Assembly (NCBI GenBank): GCA_026416095.1
Contig: JAOAFV010000037.1
Coordinates: 1-53,646 of the forward strand
Source of the DNA: Bacteroidales bacterium
GTDB taxonomy: Bacteria; Bacteroidota; Bacteroidia; Bacteroidales; GWA2-32-17
Direction of reading: 5' to 3'
Length of the DNA stretch: 53,646 nt
The notes under the pieces were generated by a model. That model saw nothing but the letters and a program-made list of their open reading frames with translations. It ran no database searches and was not told where the DNA came from. Position numbers and translations under genes: made by a program. Positions 5,753-30,832 of the stretch are shown piece by piece. How positions within the stretch are numbered: position 1 is the first letter of the stretch; every line of letters starts with the position of its first letter.

Positions 5753-7027
5753 TTATTTTACTAGTTTGTCGGTTTTATAAGCGCAAAGAGATCCACATAT
5801 AGAGCAATATTCACCAATAAATTTATTTTCGTAACGTCTTTTTCGTGCTAATTCAGGATCAATAACATATTTAAACATTTCATCCCAATTAAGTTCATAT
5901 CGATACTTTGAAACCATGTAATCTCTTTCTATTTCAGATTTTATTCCTTTTACAATATTAGCTGCGTGTGCAGCTATTTTACTTGCTATAACTCCTTGTT
6001 TCACATCTTCTACGGTGGGCAAAGTAAGATGTTCGGCGGGTGTAACATAGCATAAAAAATCGGCACCAGCAACTGCTGCAATTGTACCTCCAATTGCTCC
6101 TACAATGTGATCGTAACCTGGAGCAATGTCGGTAACTAAAGGGCCTAAAACATAAAATGGTGCATTTTTAGTAACTTTTTTCATTATTTTAACATTAGCT
6201 TCAATTTCGTCAAGTGGCATATGACCTGGCCCTTCAACCATAACCTGAACATTGTGTTCTCTAGCTCTTTCTACTAACTCTCCTAAAACTAATAATTCGG
6301 CTAATTGTCCTCTATCTGAAGCATCGGCACATGCTCCTGGTCTAAGCCCGTCTCCTAAGCTTATTGTAACATCGTATTCGTAACAAATATCAAGTATTTT
6401 ATCATAGTGCTCGTATAGGGGGTTTTCTTTATTATTTTTTAGTATCCATGTTTTAAGAATTGAACCACCACGACTAACGATACCACAAACTCTCGGATCT
6501 TTTTGTAGGTAGCTTAGTGATGTTTTAGTAACGCCGCAATGTAAAGTCATAAAATCAACCCCAAGTTGAGCTTGGTATTCAATTTCTTTTAAAATATCGT
6601 CTATTGTTATTTCAGATAAATCACGATTATTTCTTATGTATTTTGTTGCTACTGCATATATAGGTACAGTACCCACAGGTACAGTACTTTTTTCGATTAT
6701 TGTTTTTAATATTAAATGTAAATCGCCACCTGTTGATAAATCCATAATTGTGTCGGCACCGTATTTAATTGCAGTATTTAGTTTATCAAGTTCTATATTT
6801 ATGTTGTTGCAAATTTCTGATGTTCCAATATTTGCATTAATTTTTGTTTTTAAACCTTTACCAATTCCACATGGCGAAACTACATGATTTTTATTTTTAG
6901 GTATAACAACTTGGCCTTCTTTAATAAGGTCCATTAAATTAGGTAGGTCTATATTTTCACTTTTTGCAACTTGTTCTATTTCTTTTGTTATTACTCCTTT
7001 CTTTGCGTATTCTAATTGAGTACTCAT
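5753..7027 (-). CDS. thiC: Phosphomethylpyrimidine synthase ThiC
   Basis: 424 residues, the short form without the N-terminal domain of the E. coli-type enzyme. ThiC is a radical-SAM enzyme that rearranges aminoimidazole ribotide to HMP-P. Visible motifs are IGTSEICNNINIELDK, DTIMDLSTGGDLH, LHCGVTKTS, SLGDGLRPG and MVEGPGHMPLDEI. The C-terminal cluster motif reads CSICGSLC (Cys-x2-Cys-x3-Cys), one residue shorter than the E. coli-type Cys-x2-Cys-x4-Cys. I believe this is normal for short anaerobe/archaeal-like forms, but it should be checked by alignment. It lies between thiE (3-base gap) and thiD. The oxygen-sensitive cluster fits an anaerobic lifestyle. Confidence 0.96.
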   Translation of the reverse strand: MSTQLEYAKKGVITKEIEQVAKSENIDLPNLMDLIKEGQVVIPKNKNHVVSPCGIGKGLKTKINANIGTSEICNNINIELDKLNTAIKYGADTIMDLSTGGDLHLILKTIIEKSTVPVGTVPIYAVATKYIRNNRDLSEITIDDILKEIEYQAQLGVDFMTLHCGVTKTSLSYLQKDPRVCGIVSRGGSILKTWILKNNKENPLYEHYDKILDICYEYDVTISLGDGLRPGACADASDRGQLAELLVLGELVERAREHNVQVMVEGPGHMPLDEIEANVKIMKKVTKNAPFYVLGPLVTDIAPGYDHIVGAIGGTIAAVAGADFLCYVTPAEHLTLPTVEDVKQGVIASKIAAHAANIVKGIKSEIERDYMVSKYRYELNWDEMFKYVIDPELARKRRYENKFIGEYCSICGSLCAYKTDKLVK

Positions 7028-7030
7028 AAG

Positions 7031-7654
7031 TTATTTTTTATCATGAATTATATCTAATATTTTTTTTAATTTATCTTCAAATTCACTAATATTTTTTGAT
7101 TCCATGAAGTATCTAACCATGCAAAAATTTTTTACTCCAGTAGTTAATATTTTATCTAGGTTGTAATCAAATATTCCTCCTATAGCAACCAAAGGTTTAT
7201 TATTCATTAGTTTAACAGCCTTTTTTAAATTACTTAATCCTACTTCCTTATAGGAAGGTTTGGTTGGAGTTTTAAATATAGGGCCAAAAGCATAATAATT
7301 ATAATTTTTTGTTAAACTTTCTTTAAGTTGTTTTATCGAGTGGTTTGAAATACCAATTTTTATTTTTTTATTTATTCGTCTAATATCTTCGTAAGCAATG
7401 TCGTCTTGACCTATGTGAATGTAGTCGGCATTTACAATTGTTGCAATGTCAAGACGATCATTAACTACAAAATTTGTATCGGTATTGTTAGTTATTTTTC
7501 TTATATCTTTTGCTATTTTAATAATCTCTTTATCGGGTATACTTTTTTCGCGTAATTGTATCATTTTAATTTTATACTTAACACATACTTCAGCAATTTT
7601 GGTATGTTTAATTATAGGATTTGTTATAATTATGTACAAACCAAAGTTATTCAT
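7031..7654 (-). CDS. thiE: Thiamine-phosphate synthase
   Basis: 207 residues, TIM-barrel ThiE. It joins HMP-PP with thiazole phosphate to make thiamine phosphate. Supporting motifs are IQLREKSIPDKEI near residue 33, VNDRLDIA near 83, HIGQDD near 95, the phosphate-binding YAFGPIFKTPTKPS near 137 and VAIGGI near 156. It starts 8 bases inside thi4 and is followed by thiC after 3 bases, so it is translationally coupled in the operon. Catalytic and pyrophosphate-binding regions look complete. Confidence 0.94.
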   Translation of the reverse strand: MNNFGLYIIITNPIIKHTKIAEVCVKYKIKMIQLREKSIPDKEIIKIAKDIRKITNNTDTNFVVNDRLDIATIVNADYIHIGQDDIAYEDIRRINKKIKIGISNHSIKQLKESLTKNYNYYAFGPIFKTPTKPSYKEVGLSNLKKAVKLMNNKPLVAIGGIFDYNLDKILTTGVKNFCMVRYFMESKNISEFEDKLKKILDIIHDKK

Positions 7655-8420
7655 TCTTAATAAGGGTTAGAATCAAATTAGCAACTTTTTCGCCCGATAA
7701 TAACATTCCACCAAATATTGGTCCCATTCTAAAGCTACCACATACACCATTAGCAGCCATTCCAGTAATGAATAATCCAGGATAAATTTCTTTTGTATTT
7801 TCAATTGTTGTTTTTTCGGCTTCTTCGGCAGAAAGGGAACGTTCTCCTTCAATTTTGCCACTAGGAGTATTAAGAATAACCTTGTTTTTCTTTTCAAGTA
7901 CTTTTGTTACCTCAGAATCGTGACCTGTAGCATCGATTACGTATTTTGCCATAACAATTAAAGGATCAACATGTAATTGCTCTCTATGAACAGGAGCCCA
8001 ATTAACAACAATTCCACAAACTTTATTATTTTTAAGTATAACATCTTCAATGGAGAAGCAATTAAAAATTGTAGCTCCGTTTTTTGTTGCATTATAAATT
8101 AAAGCCGATGTAGCATGTACTGAGTCGGCTGTATAAAGATTAAATTCGTATTGTTTATAACTTATTCCAAACATGTCGAGTAAGTGAGTTGCTTCTTTTT
8201 GTACAACTATTTGATTAAACATCATTGCTCCACCCCACATACCACCACCAGGAGCAAGTTTTCTTTCAAATATTCCTACTTTTACATTGTTATTAGCCAA
8301 AATAGCACCTGCAACTAATCCTGATGGCCCTGCTCCTACTATTGCAACATCTAAATCAATGCTATTGATTAATTTTTCGAAATATGTCTTTACAATGATC
8401 TCTGATATTTGCTTTTCCAT
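7647..8420 (-). CDS. thi4: Thi4-type thiazole synthase, His (sulfide-dependent) variant
   Basis: 257 residues. An FAD/NAD-type Rossmann motif (VGAGPSGLVAG) near residue 28 is followed by the Thi4 hallmark APGGGMWGGAMMFNQIVVQ. These features identify the ADP-thiazole synthase family, which builds the thiazole ring of thiamine from NAD and glycine. In yeast Thi4 one active-site Cys gives up its sulfur and the enzyme dies after one turnover. Here the equivalent site reads QLHVDP, with His150, as in methanogen enzymes that use free sulfide catalytically. It is the first gene after the TPP riboswitch and overlaps thiE by 8 bases. No thiS, thiF, thiG or thiH is present nearby, consistent with Thi4 replacing them. 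That this copy uses sulfide is inference from the residue. Confidence 0.92.
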   Translation of the reverse strand: MEKQISEIIVKTYFEKLINSIDLDVAIVGAGPSGLVAGAILANNNVKVGIFERKLAPGGGMWGGAMMFNQIVVQKEATHLLDMFGISYKQYEFNLYTADSVHATSALIYNATKNGATIFNCFSIEDVILKNNKVCGIVVNWAPVHREQLHVDPLIVMAKYVIDATGHDSEVTKVLEKKNKVILNTPSGKIEGERSLSAEEAEKTTIENTKEIYPGLFITGMAANGVCGSFRMGPIFGGMLLSGEKVANLILTLIKNE

Positions 8421-8460: not shown

Positions 8461-8525
8461 TGAGAATATATCTTGAACTCCCTTCGCAGGTATTACCCTG
8501 TTCAGGTTCAAAGGGTATATTCTCA
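8461..8525 (-). promoter_or_regulatory. Candidate riboswitch expression platform: 10-base anti-aptamer pairing
   Basis: The bases 8516-8525 inside the aptamer (reverse-strand UGAGAAUAUA, covering most of the conserved CUGAGA box) are perfectly complementary to 8461-8470 just downstream of P1 (reverse-strand UAUAUUCUCA). Pairing of the two would destroy the TPP site; ligand binding would free the downstream strand. I see no U-run terminator, so the control step is not clear; translation initiation of thi4 is the likelier target. Confidence 0.6.
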
Positions 8526-8552
8526 GCCTTCTACTAAGGCACCCCCGTTCAC
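8473..8552 (-). promoter_or_regulatory. TPP riboswitch (THI element)
   Basis: On the reverse strand the aptamer opens with P1 UGAAC (8551-8547), then GGGGGUGCC, a small P3 hairpin, the conserved GGCUGAGA core (pyrimidine site), CCUGAACAGG with UAAUACC, and the conserved GCGAAGGGA. It closes with GUUCA (8474-8478), the P1 partner. All core THI-box elements are present, so it should bind thiamine pyrophosphate and repress thi4-thiE-thiC-thiD. About 52 bases separate it from the thi4 start. The -7 box immediately upstream places the transcript start at or next to P1. Confidence 0.96.
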
Positions 8553-8555
8553 AAA

Positions 8556-8563
8556 CAAAAGTA
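8556..8563 (-). promoter_or_regulatory. -7 promoter box of the thiamine operon
   Basis: The reverse strand reads TACTTTTG, matching TAnnTTTG, ending 4 bases before the riboswitch P1 strand. The transcript would therefore begin directly with the aptamer. No clear -33 TTTG is seen in the A/T-run upstream. Confidence 0.6.
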
Positions 8564-26745: not shown

Positions 26746-27444
26746 ATGAAAAAGCTTGTAGTTCTTACTGGTGCGGGTATAAGTGCCGAAAGTGGTATTT
26801 CAACATTTAGAGATAGTGGAGGATTGTGGGAACAATATCGCATTGAAGATGTAGCAACTCCCGAAGCATGGGAAAAAAATCCTCAACTTGTATTAGAGTT
26901 TTATAATCAACGTCGTAAACAATTGCTTGAATGTAAACCAAATGAAGCTCATTTAATACTTGCCGAATTAGAAAAATGGTTCGAAGTATATATCATAACT
27001 CAAAATGTAGATGATTTGCACGAAAGAGCAGGCAGTAAAAATGTTTTGCACTTACACGGTGAATTAAAAAAAGCTCGGAGTACTGTTGATCCAAATTTAA
27101 TATATGAAATTGATGGTTGGGAATTAAAATGGGGCGATAAATGTGAAAAAGGAAGTCAATTGCGGCCACATATTGTTTGGTTTGGTGAACCTGTCCCTAA
27201 AATGGCTGAGGCAATTGCTATTACCGAAAAAGCAGATATTTTTGTTATTATTGGTACATCGCTTGTTGTTTATCCTGCCGCTTCGCTTATATATTTTGTA
27301 CCTCAAACTACTCCTATTTATCTTATTGATCCTGCCGATTTTAATTTACCTAACAAAAATATTACCCACATTAAAGAAAAAGCAACTAAAGGATGTAAAA
27401 TTTTAAAGAATCTTATTTTAGACCAAGCAGATAAAGAAATATAA
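26746..27444 (+). CDS. cobB: NAD-dependent protein deacylase, class III sirtuin
   Basis: 232 residues of Sir2 fold. NAD-binding GAGISAESGISTFR starts at residue 9, TQNVDDLHERAG at 85-96, catalytic His104 in LHLHGEL, and RPHIVWFGE, GTSLVVYPAA follow. Tyr53 and Arg56 in FYNQRR match the Y-x-x-R pair that lets SIRT5/CobB-type enzymes remove succinyl and malonyl groups. The two CxxC pairs of zinc-binding sirtuins are absent; only isolated Cys residues remain, so this is a zinc-less form as often seen in Bacteroidota. It is monocistronic with its own -7 box. Acyl preference is inference. Confidence 0.92.
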   Translation: MKKLVVLTGAGISAESGISTFRDSGGLWEQYRIEDVATPEAWEKNPQLVLEFYNQRRKQLLECKPNEAHLILAELEKWFEVYIITQNVDDLHERAGSKNVLHLHGELKKARSTVDPNLIYEIDGWELKWGDKCEKGSQLRPHIVWFGEPVPKMAEAIAITEKADIFVIIGTSLVVYPAASLIYFVPQTTPIYLIDPADFNLPNKNITHIKEKATKGCKILKNLILDQADKEI

Positions 27445-27470
27445 AATATTTTGTTTTTCAATATTTTTCT

Positions 27471-27495
27471 GAAAAAATAAAAAATTAATTTTTTC
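27471..27495 (+). terminator. Weak hairpin after cobB, possible terminator
   Basis: An 8-base inverted repeat (GAAAAAAT at 27471-27478 and ATTTTTTC at 27488-27495) lies 26 bases after the cobB stop. The stem has a single G-C pair, so stability is low; a role as bidirectional terminator is only possible. Confidence 0.25.
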
Positions 27496-27711
27496 GAAAA
27501 TTTCAATGCTTTTACACAGCTAAACTCATTTAATGATTGTTAATTTGTGAATTAACTTTGTATAGTGAATGTAATTTTCAAATGAAGAAAAAATAAAAAA
27601 AACTCTAAAAAGGTTTTTGCTATTAAAGATGTAATTAAACTAAAATTTTGTTAAGAAAATTATATTTTTCTTATGAAGCACACATGTTGAACCCTTTTTT
27701 TAGATAATTTT

Positions 27712-27735
27712 AATGAATAGAAAAGCTTATTCATT
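27712..27735. repeat. Small perfect inverted repeat
   Basis: AATGAATA (27712-27719) and TATTCATT (27728-27735) form an 8-base stem with an 8-base loop, just upstream of the first paired element. Confidence 0.45.
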
Positions 27736-27752
27736 GAGAGATATGTAAAAAG

Positions 27753-27857
27753 ACCTTTGCAAAATTACCTAAAAATAATTTTTTAACAATTTAATATGAT
27801 TGAAAATCAATATTTTTCAAAATATTAAGATAGTTTTACAAAAGGTTTTGCAAAGGT
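27753..27857. repeat. Structured repeat element, copy A
   Basis: About 105 bases bounded by a perfect 12-base inverted repeat: ACCTTTGCAAAA (27753-27764) and TTTTGCAAAGGT (27846-27857). Inside is a second hairpin (TTGAAAA ... TTTTTCAA). The interior aligns over its whole length with copy B at 28075-28181. It may be a structured RNA, a DNA hairpin element or the remnant of a small transposable element. Confidence 0.55.
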
Positions 27858-28073
27858 TACAATGTGTGAATTTTAATTTGTCGAATTTTTAATTTCTATT
27901 ATTTTAAAAGAAATAATTTTTTTTAACTACCTCTATTTCTTTTATTTTTATAAATTTATTTAAAGTATTATTTTAAGTTTTTTAAATTTATTTTTCTGCT
28001 TAAATAAGCTTATAAAACAAGAAATTTATCTTTTTTTTTAATTCTAGGGATTAAAAAAGAAGTGTTAAGAAAT

Positions 28074-28182
28074 AAAATCTTTGAAAAATTAGATGAAAAC
28101 ATTTTTTTACAATTAATTGAAATTGAAAATCAACATTTTCAAAATACTGAGAGATCTTTACGAAAGGTTTTATAAAGATTTT
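28074..28182. repeat. Structured repeat element, copy B
   Basis: Bounded by AAAATCTTT (28074-28082) and AAAGATTTT (28174-28182), a perfect 9-base inverted repeat. In the arms C-to-T on the left is matched by G-to-A on the right relative to copy A, keeping the pair. The inner hairpin TTGAAAA-N6-TTTTCAA is also kept. Both copies are followed by AATTTGTCG further on. Confidence 0.55.
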
Positions 28183-28489
28183 GAAATTTAACCAGTAACA
28201 ATTTGTCGCTAATGTTTTCGCTGTGACAGATTAAAATGGAAGTATTAAGAAATTTAATAGTTATAAAACTTTTTCTTTTGAAAAATAATTCTAAAAATTA
28301 ATTTTTTTCGATAAAAACATTAAAATAGTTAAGTTAACAAAAAGATTATTAAAAACTTTCGACTAATTTTATTATGTGTTGTTTTTAAAATAAAGTTTCA
28401 ATGCTATTTAGAACGAAGTTTTGTTTTACTAAAAAATTACTTACAAATAAAGTTAATTTGTAGCAAAATTATTATGTTACTAAAGAAAA

Positions 28490-30832
28490 TTATATCGACA
28501 GCACATATTGTAAGGAAATGTTTCTTGGAGGTCCGATGTCGCCAGGTCGTTCCATATATTCTTTGTTAAATACATTTTTAATTACAAGCGATAATTTACT
28601 TTGCTCATTAATATTCCAAGATATGCGATAATCAACTATTACAAAACCTTTATTGTTTTTTTGTCGATATTCATATAAGCCTGGTAAAATTTCGTAACCC
28701 CCCGGACCATCGCCTAAAAAGTCTTCAAACACCTTATCGATATTAACTATGAAGCTACGATAAGTTAAATTGATACCAGTAGAAATTTTTCTTAAATCTA
28801 ATTGAAAATCGCTTTTAAAACTATGTTTGTATCTATATTTTAACATATTAGACGAAGTACTTTTAGATGTGTCAGATTTATTGAGGTCAATAGGGTCCAT
28901 GTAAGTGTAACCAATAAGAAGTGTTGCAGGGATACCAAAAAACTTACCCCTTCCATTTAAACTTATTTCAAAACCCCTTATAAGAGCATTTCCAATGTTT
29001 CTAGATTGAAACCCAAGTGTTTTAAAACCATGAGTTGCAATAATATTTAAATCAGCAGAATCTTTAATGTTTAATGGTCTAAAAGAAATAGGATCGTAAA
29101 AACCAAAAATAAATTCCATCATTTTGTGGTATTCTGTCCAGAATGCTGAAATGTCCAATAGTCCTGTCCATTTTGAAATTACAAGTCCTTGTTTTATTCC
29201 TATTTCTGAGCTCCAACCTGTTTCGGGTTTTATTTGGGGGCTTGGAAATATATTTATTCCTCCTAACGATGTATAAGTATATTTTTCAGCAATTGATGGG
29301 AACCTATAACCTTGACCAAACGATGCTCGCAAAAAAGTATGTTCAAAAAGTTGATAATTTAAGCCAAATCTTCCTACAGGATATATTGGCATTTCTTTTA
29401 TAGTATCTCCCTGTATAATTGTTTTACTTTCCATTTTGTCGATACGATAATATTCTGCTCTTAAGCCTAATACTATTATTAGTTTATTTATTTTTTTATC
29501 TACTTGTCCAAATATTGCAATGTTACTTGCATCGTGTTTTTCAAATAATCCACCTTTAATGTTGTTGTATATATTTAATGCTCCTATTGTATATGTAAGA
29601 TTATTCTTAGCTTTTTTCTGAAATAAATATTCAAGATAATACATATTAGAATTACTATTTTTAGAGGTATCGTTTGGAATTCTATTTTTTACCCAAAAAT
29701 ATCGAGTTCGTAAAGTATGTTTTAAGCTATCGTTTTTGAAGTAAATTAAAGATGGGTCAATATTTAGTCTGGTGCCTATATTTCTTGTTATAGTTTGAGG
29801 GTTTTGACGATAAGCTCCTGAATCGGCATTCTGCCACAAAAAAAATTCTGTTTTATCGAAGTTCATAAAATTTGTGTTTAAACCTACTGATAAACCTTTT
29901 ACTTTTTTAAATCTGTATCTTAAATTTATGTTGCCACGTAATCTTTCTTCGGTTTCTTTTTCTCTGTAGCCACTATTACTGTACCCATGAGCTCCTACAA
30001 CTATATCAAGATTTTTTATTTTTTGCATATGAAAAACATTTGCACCAGCAAATAATGGTTGAGATTCGTGCCACCATATTAATTCTTTTCTTTTTGGATT
30101 CATATACAAACCATTAAAGATAATAACTTTTGTTTCGGGTTTATCTTTTGGATATGCAGTTCTTATGTTTATTACTCCATTAAGTGCCGATGAACCAAAA
30201 AGCGATGAAGAAGCACCTTTTATTACTTCAACCTGCGAAATGTTTTCTACAGGAATAAAATTCCATTTAATATCGGCTGCATCGGGCGATAACATTGGCA
30301 TATCGTCTACTAATAATAATACCCTGCTACCTGTTCCGTAACTATATCCACTTCCTCCTCTTATACTTGGTTGTGATGAAAGAACATCGACTCCAGGCAA
30401 ATTCTTAATTGCCATGTCCATTTGTGTAACATTATTATTTTCAAGAAATTTTGGTTTAATAACTTCCATCGACACAACTGTTTCGGTAATTTTTTGTTCG
30501 TATCTGGAAGCACTAACCACAATTTCTTCGAAAACTTGAATATCTTCTTTCATTTCTACATTTAATTCAATTATTTTATTTTTTTCCAAATAAATAGTTT
30601 TTACAATTTTTTTGTACCCAACAAAATTAAAAGAAATTTCAAGTTTTCCTTCTAGGTTTGTTTCTAATTTGTAATAACCATTATTATCGCTAACACAGCC
30701 TGAACCATCATCTAGCAATACATTGACTAAAGGTAACGGATCTTTAGTCTCACTATCAATTATCTTACCTTTTATTATAGTCTGAGCATTTATTACATAA
30801 CATGCTAGTATAAAAAAGATAACTTCTCTCAC
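28490..30832 (-). CDS. TonB-dependent outer-membrane receptor with CarboxypepD_reg-like domain
   Basis: 780 residues starting at GTG. A signal peptide (ending INAQ) is followed by a carboxypeptidase-regulatory-like domain (residues 20-100: GKIIDSETKDPLPLVNVLL), then the plug domain (IVVSASRYEQKITETVVSMEVI, LPGVDVLSSQPSIRGGSGYSYG, VEVIKGASSSLFGSSALNGVINI), then a 22-strand-type beta-barrel ending in an aromatic-rich strand (NISLQYVLSI). It moves a large or scarce nutrient across the outer membrane with TonB energy. No SusD, peptidase or siderophore genes adjoin, so the ligand is unknown. A -7 box lies 10 bases before the GTG. Confidence 0.93.
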   Translation of the reverse strand: MREVIFFILACYVINAQTIIKGKIIDSETKDPLPLVNVLLDDGSGCVSDNNGYYKLETNLEGKLEISFNFVGYKKIVKTIYLEKNKIIELNVEMKEDIQVFEEIVVSASRYEQKITETVVSMEVIKPKFLENNNVTQMDMAIKNLPGVDVLSSQPSIRGGSGYSYGTGSRVLLLVDDMPMLSPDAADIKWNFIPVENISQVEVIKGASSSLFGSSALNGVINIRTAYPKDKPETKVIIFNGLYMNPKRKELIWWHESQPLFAGANVFHMQKIKNLDIVVGAHGYSNSGYREKETEERLRGNINLRYRFKKVKGLSVGLNTNFMNFDKTEFFLWQNADSGAYRQNPQTITRNIGTRLNIDPSLIYFKNDSLKHTLRTRYFWVKNRIPNDTSKNSNSNMYYLEYLFQKKAKNNLTYTIGALNIYNNIKGGLFEKHDASNIAIFGQVDKKINKLIIVLGLRAEYYRIDKMESKTIIQGDTIKEMPIYPVGRFGLNYQLFEHTFLRASFGQGYRFPSIAEKYTYTSLGGINIFPSPQIKPETGWSSEIGIKQGLVISKWTGLLDISAFWTEYHKMMEFIFGFYDPISFRPLNIKDSADLNIIATHGFKTLGFQSRNIGNALIRGFEISLNGRGKFFGIPATLLIGYTYMDPIDLNKSDTSKSTSSNMLKYRYKHSFKSDFQLDLRKISTGINLTYRSFIVNIDKVFEDFLGDGPGGYEILPGLYEYRQKNNKGFVIVDYRISWNINEQSKLSLVIKNVFNKEYMERPGDIGPPRNISLQYVLSI

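Follow-up and report, generated by a model that had tools for sequence, protein, structure and literature searches.

In this Bacteroidales genome, a Sir2-family gene and a TonB-dependent receptor gene flank a gap that holds two repeats. With a probability that we put at about 95%, both repeats are miniature non-autonomous elements (MITEs) that are related to an insertion sequence (IS) of the IS5 family. The family to which they belong is a lineage-restricted MITE with IS5-type ends, an ordinary genomic passenger and not a new RNA. The coordinates of the two copies, A and B, and of their surroundings are collected in Table 1 and refer to the window, by which we mean the whole stretch of 53,646 nucleotides that was analyzed.

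Table 1. Features of the two MITE copies and of the gap that holds them, in window coordinates.
Feature	Position	Strand	Remarks
MITE copy A	27750..27860	+	111 bp, family-consensus identity 87%
Copy A left terminal inverted repeat	27750..27764	+	AAGACCTTTGCAAAA, one change from GAGACCTTTGCAAAA
Copy A right terminal inverted repeat	27846..27860	-	TTTTGCAAAGGTTAC as written on the + strand
MITE copy B	28074..28182	+	109 bp, more diverged, consensus identity 78%
Copy B left target-site duplication	28069..28073	.	GAAAT
Copy B right target-site duplication	28183..28187	.	GAAAT
Sir2-family gene	26746..27444	+	left neighbor of the gap, outside the element
TonB-dependent receptor gene	28490..30832	-	outside the element, convergent with the Sir2 gene

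A first-pass annotation of the same DNA had described two related structured elements in the only long gene-free gap, reading them either as sequences under selection for structure or as a decayed miniature transposable element. The relationship is real, as local alignment of A with B scored 93, whereas none of 1,000 dinucleotide shuffles exceeded 49, and in the family alignment the two share 76% identity in a nearly full-length match. The perfect 12-base inverted ends of copy A (ACCTTTGCAAAA at 27753-27764 and TTTTGCAAAGGT at 27846-27857) and the 9-base ends of copy B (AAAATCTTT and AAAGATTTT, 28074-28082 and 28174-28182) read in the sequence as claimed, as does the TTGAAAA...TTTTCAA hairpin that both copies hold. 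The limits of copy B stood unchanged, but for copy A the family alignment replaces 27753-27857 by the interval in Table 1. The gap itself, 27445-28489, is indeed the sole one longer than 300 bp in the window according to a crude ORF caller. A simple scan found no terminator-like site in it, and the spacer between A and B gave only short matches in the same genome (30-84 bases at 71-90%). The gene content, for instance a TonB-dependent receptor that carries a carboxypeptidase-regulatory domain, agrees with an origin in the Bacteroidota.

The family is abundant in its own genome (2.46 Mb in 62 contigs). A DNA query with positions 27700-28230 returned at least 44 matches including the window, with the best 40 of 409 first-look candidates scored, and an iterated profile over 35 regions plus the window likewise found 44, of which two are clearly partial. 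Alignment A2, which comprises 43 copies and leaves out L062:2068-2163 (partial) and the short L072 and L085, was the basis of a sequence-only family model. This model found at least 60 matches at E ≤ 0.001 in the genome, where, as in each genome searched, the best 150 of thousands of first-look candidates were scored, a depth at which weak copies may escape. At least 47 of the 60 have a near-full span (model positions ≤4 to ≥107); two of these are shortened to 80-92 bp and one is weak (29.5 bits). The remaining 13 include IS ends, partial copies and fragments. Four model matches (C7:84279, C27:546, C62:2304 and the weak C21:109576) stand outside A2 and the flank tests; L072 and L085 were kept in the tests of target duplications, neighbor setting and spanning ORFs. 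We rejected solo 32-bp palindromes as a separate class, since six of the seven places found at ≤3 mismatches are the right end of a longer model match, and the remaining one, C34:13486-13517, is covered by the model's right half only.

The search for further copies that the first-pass annotation had proposed thus succeeded within the genome but gave none at E ≤ 0.001 in three same-genus genomes, with the best 150 candidates scored in each. Across 20 relatives at this depth, G005, G008 and G015 had one weak model match each (22-24 bits), and the other 17, the same-genus genomes included, had none. A DNA search with copy A against 59 relatives returned short partial matches in 14 genomes. All three same-genus genomes were among them, with 38-41 bits over 26-59 bases, and the highest-scoring match reached 47 bits over 47 bases; we rejected these as real copies and took them as A/T-rich chance. 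In five relatives, about 4.1 kb beyond the 3′ end of the TonB gene held no element (best E 0.11), at a site that is not comparable, as no Sir2 gene is found there.

When copies are aligned with their flanks, a block that opens with GAGACC and closes near TCTC is bordered by unrelated sequence outside both ends, which looks like the result of separate insertions. The sole exception is a common right flank of L060:2013-2122 and L046:4904-5014, which are not independent, and neither is among the copies with a target duplication. Pair identities range from two identical copies at different loci (L032 and L033), through further pairs at 97-98%, to a median pair of 79%, suggesting a spread over a period of time.

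The family consensus has 15-bp inverted ends, GAGACCTTTGCAAAA and TTTTGCAAAGGTCTC, in an element of ~111 bp, far below the length needed for a transposase gene. At least 11 of the 15 end positions match in 37 of the 43 copies, and the 15-bp end at ≤1 mismatch occurs at 61 places in the genome, compared with 0 for a reversed control pattern. Target-site duplications, which had been suggested as a check around extra copies, were found: 16 of 45 copies have exact 5-bp flanking duplications, one of them a run of T, whereas shuffling the right flanks among the 45 copies 1,000 times gave a mean of 1.13 and never reached 16. Several of these duplications had been seen by eye ahead of the formal test. 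Exact flank matches of lengths 2-4 and 6-10 at the same boundaries were at background level, signals at offset 1 with length 3 and offset -1 with length 7 are the 5-bp signal shifted, and the mean flank identity at length 10 was equalled by 20 of 1,000 shuffles. Because the chance of a 5-bp match at a single copy is ~2.5% (1.13/45), the GAAAT pair around copy B has weight only together with the family; copy A has no exact 5-bp duplication (GTAAA / AATGT). Inverted ends, 5-bp duplications, about fifty dispersed copies and matching IS ends in the genome all agree with the decayed miniature transposable element of the first-pass annotation.

Columns 88-102 of A2 (27829-27843 in copy A) hold a third, internal and less exact copy of the terminal repeat, which faces the right end and pairs in 77% of cells, turning the last 32 bases of the MITE into a palindrome in the better copies. 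It is doubtful, and we would rate it as quite improbable, that this repeat offers the transposase two alternative left ends and hence two mobile units; such a composite design was not met in the limited MITE literature compared.

Evidence on the parent comes from transposase remnants in the same genome, where a search with DDE_Tnp_1 (PF01609) gave three matches. One of them, at a contig end (C52:17680-17922), encodes the C-terminal 81 amino acids of an IS5-type transposase. With NF033581 it scores 64 bits (E = 1.4e-17), which, for a fragment, falls short of the 140-bit cut-off set for whole proteins; the IS1182 model came next at 1.7e-9. It lies ~190 bases from an exact GAGACCTTTGCAAAA at C52:17479. 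Past the 15-bp repeat, this IS end matches the MITE left end with a score of 68, and the IS end on C39 does likewise with a score of 52, neither being equalled in 200 shuffles. The likeness covers the first ~58 bp of the MITE, at its left end only; on the right side, each of seven IS ends was equalled by 18 or more of 200 shuffles. By this comparison of sequences, the left end of the MITE is that of a local IS5-type element. Its likely parent is an IS5-family IS, from which the MITE would have originated, and it was probably moved by the IS5-family enzyme of such a larger element.

A search of the genome, an assembly of 62 contigs that may miss a repeated IS, did not reveal an intact transposase of this type, and present mobility is therefore unproven. 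The transposase matches are either cut at contig ends (C52, C39) or stop-broken or fragmentary (C13, C8, C62, C25, C45, C32). A complete relative of 1,378 bp exists in the same-genus genome G001 (L088:551-1928), with a 339-amino-acid IS5-family transposase above the model cut-off (NF033581, E = 1.6e-68) and the ends GAGACCTTTGCAAGG and GAGACCTTTGCAAAA. Past the repeat, the IS ends of G001 and G002 resemble the MITE left end no better than 98 to 184 of 200 shuffles. An end scan of 14 loci with related transposases found GAGA- or AAGACC-type pairs at L088 and L102 (both G001), L092 (G036) and L107 (G095), none of them with a perfect 5-bp duplication. The flanks of the complete G001 relative (TAATT / ATATT) show none that is clear, those in G036 (ATAAT / ATAGT) have one mismatch, and G095 has none, so that the 5-bp duplication of the MITE is not tied directly to its parent. 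IS5-family elements mostly give target duplications of lengths other than 5.

Two other loci are also of note. L069 (G000:C13) holds, at 181-1278 and 6658-7812, an open gene for a 365-amino-acid IS4-family transposase (NF033592, 205 bits) and a stop-ridden relative of the G001 IS5-type transposase over nearly its whole length. L067 (G000:C55, 2-2843) looks like a diversity-generating retroelement. It encodes a reverse transcriptase (PF00078), a bAvd-like accessory protein (PF22296) and a Fib_succ_major protein that is truncated where the contig begins. Its 85-bp template-like repeat (2756-2840) has 14 mismatches, 9 of which fall at an A in what is presumed to be the template, and a single isolated MITE-type end follows closely at C55:2859-2873.

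The mechanism that we propose goes beyond what the ends, the duplications, the copy number and the likeness to the IS ends show directly. The MITE has the terminal inverted repeats of such an IS and ~58 bp of its 3′ end but lacks the transposase gene. A full-length relative would supply an IS5-family DDE transposase that binds the 15-bp ends in trans and then excises or copies the MITE. Joining to a 5-base staggered cut, followed by repair, would leave the 5-bp duplications. On this reading, the hairpin potential follows from the inverted repeats as a by-product, and the two window copies are passengers that share one roomy gap, with no host function required.

Alternatively, the repeats could be regulatory small RNAs or RNA hairpins that act in cis and are under selection on structure. 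In favor of this, copy A (z = -5.5), L032 (z = -3.6), L039 (z = -4.7) and a typed consensus (z = -6.1) fold better than shuffles, as a long inverted repeat would. Copy B, however, folds no better than shuffles (z = -0.8, 41 of 200 as good). The terminal stem is paired in 86.2% of cells, a share slightly above the 85.4% of shuffles and reached by 25 of 500 of them, and 8 of its cells are changed on both sides compared with 5.4 (73 of 500 as high), but counted as pairs changed on both sides the terminal stem has 4 compared with 3.7, the inner right-end stem 7 compared with 6.4 and the TTGAAAA hairpin 2 compared with 1.5. Compensatory changes beyond chance were thus found in none of the three, and the inner stem is at or below the level of shuffles, the hairpin at that level. 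RNAalifold gave no consensus pair on A1, a weak test as this alignment lacks the outermost end bases. The covarying pair that had been noted, C to T opposite G to A, is present between A and B at columns 5 and 115 of A2, but it is broken in 24 of the 42 distinct copies, a standard pair being kept in 18 (C-G 15, U-G 2, U-A 1). The mismatch C-T stands there in 19 of the 43 rows of A2 and in every copy of the twelve most similar pairs. As the pair is broken in most copies and C-T is found in the closest ones, the covariation most plausibly reflects chance in two copies together with the symmetry of the ends, and selection on structure finds no support. Rfam gave no family at the gathering score over the element and, in the window, only a TPP riboswitch elsewhere. 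The riboswitch lies at 8462-8556 on the minus strand (82 bits, gathering score 54). With neighbor settings that are also varied, we consider the RNA reading very improbable.

These settings bear equally on whether the MITE copies have since acquired a use, for example by terminating transcription or by stabilizing mRNA as intergenic hairpins. The end repeats could form a hairpin, and among the 38 copies for which both neighbors were called, 14 lie between convergent genes, both window copies included. Over all 45 copies, however, the split of 15 tandem, 14 convergent and 9 divergent, with 7 at the edge of the analyzed piece, is near that of chance insertion: the intergenic bases of the window are 1,048 convergent (gap included), 1,060 tandem and 879 divergent, a background of one window under a crude ORF caller. 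A preference for gene ends is therefore not evident. The absence of a terminator-like site in the gap also speaks against such a use, which we regard as unlikely. Copies inside an ORF numbered 0 of 45, which says little under a crude caller and because an insertion would itself break the ORF. After removal of the element and one 5-mer, an ORF of ≥90 amino acids spanned 2 of 45 sites, whereas for positions drawn at random from these loci the figure was 576 of 760, suggesting that the copies tend to stay out of genes or have been eliminated there. Many short palindromic repeats between genes would also be expected of REP-type palindromes moved by a RAYT (Y1 HUH) transposase, but REPs are shorter and are not known to be flanked by target duplications, and the 5-bp duplications of this family and its likeness to DDE-type IS ends make that origin exceedingly improbable.

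A MITE with IS5-type ends has counterparts in the literature. Among the papers searched, two contain the 15-letter end, PMC4596501 and PMC5070880. According to the former, ISNme1 (IS5 family) has ends printed as GAGACCTTTGCAAAA and TTTTGCAAAGGTCTC and is the proposed parent, by its ends, of the ATR MITE found 19 times in Neisseria meningitidis; these 15-bp ends equal the consensus ends of the window family letter for letter, a likeness that concerns the ends alone. BrickBuilt, a MITE of Porphyromonas gingivalis, has near-identical IS5-type ends (GAGACCTTTGCA and TGCAAAGGTCTC in its best copy), but it has 23-nt tandem repeats, 19 loci and flanking repeats of variable length (PMC4596501), whereas the window family has no tandem array and a 5-bp duplication. 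BrickBuilt is reported as strictly intergenic in a review, which describes MITEs as typically AT-rich, mostly intergenic and able to give stable stem-loops (PMC10969869). MITECca01 of Cardinium cOegib, described in PMC9769881, is similar in being a lineage-specific burst not found in related strains, in retaining part of the end of a local IS and in being mostly intergenic; it differs in its IS982-family parent, its length of ~240 bp and its 169 copies. An exact 27-position left-end pattern had no match in genome_contigs or viral_contigs, from which records of the genome itself are perhaps absent, and we recognized no report of this family among the papers returned by searches on MITEs with Bacteroidetes, IS5 or Neisseria.

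In conclusion, the family is a case in which the target duplication of a MITE with ISNme1-type ends was measured, at 5 bp, and it illustrates that covariation between two copies may not survive comparison of the whole family. That the repeat is, most likely, a passenger of mobile origin helps the annotation of this species and opens no larger question.
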